A DNA stretch of 64,000 nucleotides from Alphaproteobacteria bacterium (GTDB lineage: Bacteria > Pseudomonadota > Alphaproteobacteria > RF32 > CAG-239): positions 1 through 64,000 of the forward strand of contig JAGAJR010000026.1 of assembly GCA_017626035.1 (NCBI GenBank). The letters run 5' to 3'. Under the pieces are notes generated by a model that saw only the letters and a program-made list of their open reading frames with translations, was not told the DNA's origin and ran no database searches. Positions 43,742 through 44,547 of this stretch are shown here, piece after piece; the stretch's first letter is position 1, and every line of letters starts with the position of its first letter. The position numbers were made by a program, and so were the translations under genes.

Positions 43742-44182
43742 TTATTTTTTGGATGGGAGTTTTTCCAATTTTCCGGTAGGAGTGAGTTCCAAGCCTTTTG
43801 TGCGGAGAGCGGCTTGTCCGCTTTCGTCGTAGGTGTAATAATAAATCAATTCTCTTTCGTTGATACGGTTGGCGTCAATAGCGGCTTCCGGAATTCCCCA
43901 GATGATGGAAATCGGCCAGGTAATCAGATTCAGAAAACCATAAAGGTAATGACTGCCGTCGCCGCCGTTTCCCGATGCCAGGTAAAAGTTTCCGAATCCC
44001 GGCAGGAGGTTTAATGCTCCGGCACCGGCGGGGTTAGCCGGGCGTTTCCAGTTTCCGGCCGGCTTTTCCACGGTTATGCCCTGAGCTTTTAAGTTTCGTA
44101 ATGTTAAGTGTTCCTGATGAGTGAGAGAAGTGCAGGCAGAAAGAAGAGATACTGCCGACAGAATAGTGATAAATTTTTTCAT
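43742..44182 (-). CDS. Small lipoprotein with Gly-rich and hydrophobic segment
   Basis: 146 residues from the ATG at 44182. A lipoprotein signal (MKKFITILSAVSLLSAC) is followed by a charged region, a Gly/Ala/Pro segment (NPAGAGALNLLPGFGNFYLASGNGG) and one hydrophobic stretch (FLNLITWPISIIWGIPEAAIDANR). AAAGGATG lies 9 nt before this ATG; another ATG 12 nt upstream overlaps it. The mixture of lipobox and a TM2-like helix pair resembles small envelope lipoproteins of unknown function. It lies downstream of the structured RNA candidate at 44211-44427. Confidence 0.78.
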   Translation of the reverse strand: MKKFITILSAVSLLSACTSLTHQEHLTLRNLKAQGITVEKPAGNWKRPANPAGAGALNLLPGFGNFYLASGNGGDGSHYLYGFLNLITWPISIIWGIPEAAIDANRINERELIYYYTYDESGQAALRTKGLELTPTGKLEKLPSKK

Positions 44183-44210
44183 ACGATTAAACATCCTTTG
44201 TTTTTAGTTC

Positions 44211-44243
44211 CTAAAAAGAAACCCGCCTAGTGGAAGAGGCGGG
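44211..44243 (-). terminator. Terminator of the minus-strand RNA candidate
   Basis: CCCGCCT-CTTCCACT-AGGCGGG followed by TTTCTTTTT on the minus strand. Confidence 0.8.
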
Positions 44244-44427
44244 CGGATGTTAGAAAACCGTACTAAACTAAACGGCTCGGCTTATTTGGCCAAAACCTTA
44301 TTCACCGACATCCACCCAATAAAGTATAGGTAGACTGTCGGCACAAAATTTAAAGTCGTGTGCACCCGACTAGTTTAGTTAGGGTTTTCTAAGCCCTGAG
44401 CGGTATCCTTTCTACGGGAGGCCGCCT
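44211..44427 (-). ncRNA. Candidate structured RNA upstream of the lipoprotein gene
   Basis: About 217 nt without a coding frame. A minus-strand promoter (TTGATT 44457-44462, 17 bp, TACTCT 44434-44439) and an intrinsic terminator bracket it. TTAGAAAACC (44383-44392 on the minus strand) pairs perfectly with GGTTTTCTAA (44250-44259), continued by CTAA-CTAAAC/GTTTAG-TTTAG. Inside are GTCGG-GCACA/TGTGC-CGAC and CTTATT/AATAAG stems with further GGCC complementarity that could form a pseudoknot. It could be a stand-alone small RNA or an attenuator leader for the lipoprotein gene. No known family recognised. Confidence 0.55.
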
Positions 44428-44547
44428 GTCCAAAGAGTAGTTGAGATTTGGCGATAAATCAAGATTAAAGTTTAAAATAGGTGGTTGTAAAATACCGATT
44501 ATATTATATACTCCGGTCAGATTTTTTAATTTTGCAGAGATAAAGAT

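Follow-up and report, generated by a model that had tools for sequence, protein, structure and literature searches.

A structured RNA lies upstream of a lipoprotein gene at 44426-44211 on the minus strand of the window, the 64,000-nt stretch of alphaproteobacterial DNA analysed here. It is likely to be a C4-type antisense leader RNA that silences the gene following it, often one for a lipoprotein, autotransporter or outer-membrane protein. Its sequence shows a single unit in which an a1-like loop and b1-like strand are followed by a spacer hairpin, the C4-like domain, an intrinsic terminator and the gene. The RNA probably descends from phage immunity RNAs. The features of the window locus are as follows.

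44434..44462, minus strand: promoter-like site TTGATT-17-TACTCT, read from the sequence (-35 box 44462-44457, -10 box 44439-44434)
44399..44426, minus strand: 5' hairpin H0, from the fold of the terminated RNA
44381..44397, minus strand: hairpin H1 (AGGG/CCCT) with the a1-like loop, from covariation and swap test
44371..44380, minus strand: b1-like strand, the 5' side of helix P2 (partner 44270-44261), from swap test and covariation
44354..44371, minus strand: spacer hairpin H2 (AGTCG/CGACT), from swap test and covariation
44305..44341, minus strand: helix P4 (CCGAC...ACC / GGTGGATGTCGG), competing with the acceptor-like helix
44238..44317, minus strand: C4-like domain, consisting of the acceptor-like helix and hairpins A and B, then GCC at 44240-44238
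44317-44308 / 44250-44241, minus strand: acceptor-like helix of the C4-like domain, from covariation and swap test
44307-44278, minus strand: hairpin A of the C4-like domain
44277-44256, minus strand: hairpin B of the C4-like domain
44211..44244, minus strand: intrinsic terminator (stem 44244-44221, T tract to 44211)
44180..44199, minus strand: putative target, Shine-Dalgarno sequence (SD) AAAGGATGTT plus AATCGTATG, from RNA-RBS complementarity and the fold
43742..44182, minus strand: lipoprotein gene (146 aa), from ORF translation

Structure and covariation of the leader

The minimum free energy of the window RNA is -85.5 kcal/mol against a shuffled mean of -64.35 (sd 4.53; z -4.67), and none of 200 dinucleotide shuffles folded as well, in agreement with the structured RNA proposed in a first-pass annotation of this DNA. 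That annotation had named a conserved protein frame as the contrary finding; no minus-strand ORF of at least 40 aa was found inside the RNA. For comparison, 127 loci yielded 113 hits and 99 distinct copies, of which 97 were analysed (L021 and L103-5974, having no parsable H1, were left out) and 66 were aligned (alignment A1), while 72 of 75 matches were used as a divergent set. Loci found by pattern all carry the motif that was searched for, and its columns therefore show no variation in them.

The minus-strand promoter already suspected is weak and was not flagged by a consensus promoter scan; yet similar sites recur among relatives, with the pattern TTGA..16-18..TAnnnT found in 43 of the 97 copies against 6.2 expected from mononucleotide shuffles. 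From its position we infer that the transcript begins near 44428. Upstream of H1 in six loci (L002, L004, L009, L010, L026 and L032) a common AGGGTTTTTGA sits a few bases before the TTGAT -35 box and is a possible regulator site. At the other end a terminator-like hairpin is found in 94 of the 97 copies (1.2 in mononucleotide shuffles), and in the window the lipoprotein ATG (44182-44180) lies 29 nt past the end of the T tract, where about 30 nt had been estimated.

Covariation, which the first-pass annotation had offered as a check with loss of the pairings as the contrary outcome, is found across the helices. Within A1, double changes occur in 20 of 32 pairs, and the double-change cells number 267 against 77.2 in shuffles, so pairing is far above chance; over all helices 94.7% of cells are paired, compared with 82.7% after shuffling. 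The perfect 10-bp long-range pairing that had been noted is helix P1, joining TTAGAAAACC (44392-44383) to GGTTTTCTAA (44259-44250), and covariation supports it, as it does a further long-range helix (P2), two hairpins and a pseudoknot. In P2, 7 of 7 pairs of the main helix have double changes, and own pairing scores 9.64 against 4.43 with swapped partners (z 39.9, 88 distinct pairs). Swap scores for H1, P1 and H2 are inflated because these were parsed by searching for pairing; P2 was set by position. A pseudoknot had also been anticipated, and this is supported, but it is formed by the H2 loop GCACA (44363-44359) with TGTGC (44345-44341), the strand before P4 (z 8.3 in the swap test), and not by the GGCC complementarity originally pointed to. 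Helix P4 is paired in 99.7% of cells, its changes being mostly one-sided.

The C4-like domain begins with GGA in 69 of the 97 copies and GGG in the other 28, and RCC follows the acceptor helix in 80. Leaving aside one mismatched column (A-C in 46 of 66 sequences), the acceptor-like helix is 100% paired within the family, with a double change at only 1 of 9 pairs; hairpin B has two double-change cells. Among the 72 more divergent copies the acceptor-like helix covaries (swap z 17.0), with the variants GGTTGGAAG/CTTCCAACC and GACTGGGAG/CTCCCAGTC. The full transcript folds 15.5 kcal/mol worse in the C4-like form than in the global fold (-87.1 vs -102.6), so that processing, or the kinetics of folding during transcription, would be needed to reach the former.

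Complementarity to the ribosome-binding site

The first-pass interpretation is supported in part; it had missed the layout of phage P1 c4 and the antisense match of the 3' strand to the SD and start codon. In the window, AACATCC (44251-44245) is complementary to GGATGTT of the target, and GTACGGTT (44263-44256) to AATCGTAT, which extends into the start codon. As RNA, the possible pairings are AACAUCC to GGAUGUU and GUACGGUU to AAUCGUAU, extending into the start codon. The antisense strand is made up of the 3' arm of hairpin B, the linker and ACATCC of the C4-like domain.

A possible gene start was found in 93 of the 97 copies by a rule favouring an SD, and 86 of these lie 45-63 nt downstream of ATCC within a search range of 35-115 nt; GGATG precedes the start in only 55 of the 93. 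The longer GGATGTT occurs before 36 of 69 adjacent genes against 2 of 546 other genes at the same loci, and one of those two (L021) follows an RNA copy missed by the motif search (L164). Own RNA-RBS pairing averages 7.18 compared with 6.74 for swapped partners, with none of 5000 permutations as good. Likewise, the predicted duplex is -13.2 kcal/mol for own partners, -11.9 for swapped (z -6.6) and -8.3 for shuffled (91 distinct pairs from the 97-copy set), while 23 of the 91 RNAs set against 358 other gene starts gave -8.4. It touches the SD in 87 of the 91 and the start codon in 66. In divergent copies the switch strand again matches the RBS (z 9.2, n=64), and seed and SD co-change between genomes (AACTTCC/GGAAGTT, AACACCC/GGGTGTT, ACCTCC/GGAGGT). 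At the sequence level, then, the RNA-RBS match is copy-specific, and SD and RNA change together in divergent copies.

These results bear on whether the RNA might be a stand-alone trans-acting sRNA, for which the adjacent gene would be only one among several targets. The strong terminator of 94 copies and the four copies without a gene start in the stretch searched would suit such an RNA, but we consider it very unlikely in view of the possible start codon downstream of 93 copies and the copy-specific complementarity. In addition, the source genome has 19 AGGATGTT..ATG sites, 3 of them after an RNA copy, and by eye only L135 and perhaps L140 among the rest resemble gene starts.

A switch acting in cis is somewhat less improbable, though still unlikely. 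The leader would here toggle between the global and the C4-like fold on a ligand, ion or protein, opening and closing terminator and SD together with no free antisense RNA. One switch could set both, since the strand ACATCCGCCC overlaps the terminator, the acceptor-like helix and the SD partner, and the stretch GAATAAGGC..AAATAAGCC is highly conserved, its 3' half being partly fixed by the search pattern. In the predicted read-through fold the SD nucleotides GGAUGU are 0.70-0.99 paired, which suits the antisense reading. Forcing the acceptor-like helix leaves them 0.06-0.90 paired, so the SD is not simply freed, a point against the switch and the antisense reading alike. Also against the switch, the genes downstream are diverse, and Northern and RACE data in PMC2996969 describe the related sRNA-Xcc1 as a free RNA of 88 nt. 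No Rfam riboswitch family was among the matches in the window. The first-pass annotation had left a choice between leader, riboswitch and free RNA; the position before the lipoprotein gene bears out the leader, while nothing points to the ligand binding of a riboswitch.

Relation to C4, sRNA-Xcc1 and other RNA families

The RNA group is large and has no Rfam family of its own. At Rfam cut-offs, no family except tRNA reaches its threshold in the window. In a lax scan the best matches, sRNA-Xcc1 at 35 bits and C4 at 24.2 bits, both fell in the 3' domain (44323-44233); matches to retron msr, snoU43, suhB, anti-hemB and Ysr35 at E 0.5-7 were rejected. The C4 score is below the gathering cut-off of RF01695 (45 bits), and 0 of 10 alphaproteobacterial genomes had a C4 match over that cut-off, with weaker matches in 2. 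For sRNA-Xcc1 (RF02221, cut-off 53 bits), 8 of the 20 loci scanned gave a match in the 3' domain at E up to 1, the best at 51.7 bits (L167). The c4-a1b1 family (RF03163), named in a table of PMC2864571, matches phage P1 at 51 bits, but had no match in the window stretch (E up to 10) or the 20 loci (E up to 1). Conversely, our covariance model R1, built from 66 sequences, gave no match on P1 c4 and matched only 2 of 30 sRNA-Xcc1 loci below E 0.01. These shortfalls speak against the C4 reading.

With C4 of phages P1 and P7 (RF01695, with c4-a1b1) the RNA shares its layout: a promoter is followed by a1, b1, the spacer hairpin, the three-stem C4 domain with its RCC end, and the target RBS. The P1 record is annotated in the order a1, b1, C4, a2, b2, icd, and its sequence shows the C4 linker as the complement of a1 and the hairpin-B loop as that of b1, with a spacer hairpin between and the C4 RNA spanning GG to ACC. 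Similarly, the window RNA has a three-stem fold closed by a long outer helix, with a GG start and an RCC end; its linker and hairpin-B strand pair both upstream (the a1/b1-like P1 and P2) and at the RBS, and it is antisense to the RBS of the gene that follows within its transcription unit. There are also differences. An intrinsic terminator lies between RNA and gene here and none was seen in the P1 stretch compared, the acceptor 3' arm itself pairs with the SD, a 5' pseudoknot is present, and many copies precede surface-protein and other genes instead of icd/ant. Furthermore, a2 is identical to a1 in P1, whereas here a1 has no copy at the RBS (common substring 4.08 own, 4.03 swapped; z 0.8, not significant).

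The Rfam model of sRNA-Xcc1 (87 positions) matches the 3' domain end to end and covers that domain only. At sRNA-Xcc1 loci elsewhere (28 of 30, with L264 and L266 left out for wrong coordinates; 2 more lack a start), the 5' domain is common (z 9.2, n=28) and so is pairing to the RBS (z 6.6, n=26), which suggests that the sRNA-Xcc1 and C4 families may belong to one larger leader architecture. Matches to sRNA-Xcc1 occur in 58 of 398 Pseudomonadota genomes, 39 of them over the cut-off, and in 0 of 14 controls. Of eight of its downstream genes, hand-picked from 26, six are phage regulator types with above-cut-off matches to Bro-N, KilA-N, P22_AR_N or Rha, unlike the genes found here; a seventh has a Bro-N match below cut-off and the last has no match. 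In Xanthomonas integron cassettes sRNA-Xcc1 is found upstream of symE, according to sections of PMC12444791.

In the parts of PMC5320573 covered, Acinetobacter baumannii is described as having 21 similar C4-like Group 1 sRNAs in one genome, apparently processed at a GGW start; they resemble the present RNAs in their many C4-like copies per bacterial genome and their GG start. Those sections assign them no target, whereas in the present group the target is probably the adjacent RBS, which co-changes with the RNA. The same source attributes to C4 maturation by RNase P at GGW and occlusion of the RBS. Searching the literature for leader RNAs in gut Alphaproteobacteria yielded nothing relevant.

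If the RNA is a C4-type antisense leader, most transcripts would stop at the intrinsic terminator, and the C4-like domain would form a tRNA-like acceptor stem, with its GG start as a possible RNase P cleavage site. The freed or uncut RNA would then pair with the RBS and block translation, acting in cis on mRNA that reads through the terminator and perhaps also in trans. Helices P1 and P2 could hold the antisense strand in the precursor, giving a choice between storage, release and pairing. A phage immunity RNA system would in this way have been co-opted to silence surface-protein genes.

Distribution and downstream genes

By BLAST, the source genome has 3 copies and matches occur in 23 of 55 genomes, its own included. 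Searches with R1 detected the RNA in 121 of the 152 family genomes (among good ones, 90 of 109), in 22 of 385 genomes at class level and in 3 of 398 at phylum level, the own genome being counted at each rank. The exact pattern AATAAGCCGAGCCGTN{5,22}ACGGTTT occurs in at least 95 stretches of genome contigs; by title, almost all of the matches listed are MAGs of Alphaproteobacteria or Proteobacteria, many of gut or rumen origin; one title names Psychrosphaera and one 'Eubacterium'. Inferred from its relatives, the source bacterium is probably an uncultured gut organism. A phage origin of the window copy was considered and rejected: a single match was obtained, to an unannotated fecal scaffold (MT836653.1), the exact pattern had 0 matches in viral contigs, and the window lipoprotein had no phage match. 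Plasmid records gave no match to the window RNA.

Copy numbers in eight chosen genomes (E <=0.001) were 3, 5, 16, 19, 21, 31, 54 and 60. The 31-60 copies of three genomes, and the location of several copies near contig ends, might recall a mobile or selfish repeat spreading together with its gene while its RNA has no regulatory role. We find this hardly credible, as only selection on pairing would give the compensatory changes found inside helices and between RNA and RBS. Among individual copies, L092 has two on opposite strands, one at L103 (5974, minus strand) lacks the 5' domain and adjoins a full copy, and that of L012 adjoins 5S and 23S rRNA ends.

The window lipoprotein has 0 matches to Pfam or NCBIfam models. 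By simple rules, a lipobox-like N-terminus was assigned to 33 of 90 distinct downstream proteins against 17 of 322 other ORFs, and an export-like one to 65 of 90 against 82 of 322, the background ORFs being at least 150 aa and the downstream proteins having no such length limit. Ten downstream representatives include a PEGA lipoprotein, an OMP barrel and two autotransporters, but also an EcoRI-type methylase, an HTH regulator, an APH-like kinase and a glycosyltransferase; of the remaining two, one had no match above cut-off and the other no match at all.

C4-like RNAs are already known in phages and, from part of the A. baumannii paper, as many copies in one bacterial genome; in the present group there is a visible target that co-changes with the RNA, the targets are often surface proteins, and copy numbers go up to 60. 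A bolder and doubtful proposal is that a phage immunity RNA was domesticated into a genome-wide network in which each released C4-like RNA, having much the same seed and RBS complement as the other copies of its genome, silences sibling surface genes in trans. If true, as many as 60 surface genes could exclude one another or be expressed in stages.

In the source genome, the start at G000:C15:75855 (L135) has AGGATGTT and a membrane-like N-terminus, is not beside any of the three RNA copies and is a possible trans target. Relatives of the EcoRI-type adenine methylase (one cluster, with L022 identified) are downstream of the RNA in L022, L096 and L125, so DNA-modification genes may share the same control. 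For one protein scanned from each of the paralogue families in G113 and G119, there was no Pfam match above cut-off. In these two genomes, loci L229-L236 (G113) and L201-L207 (G119) encode families of exported-looking paralogues (MNNIKFLLLGTSLS.. and MKNYILMLGVAGVALGSY..), and every member has an RNA copy of its own in front of it.
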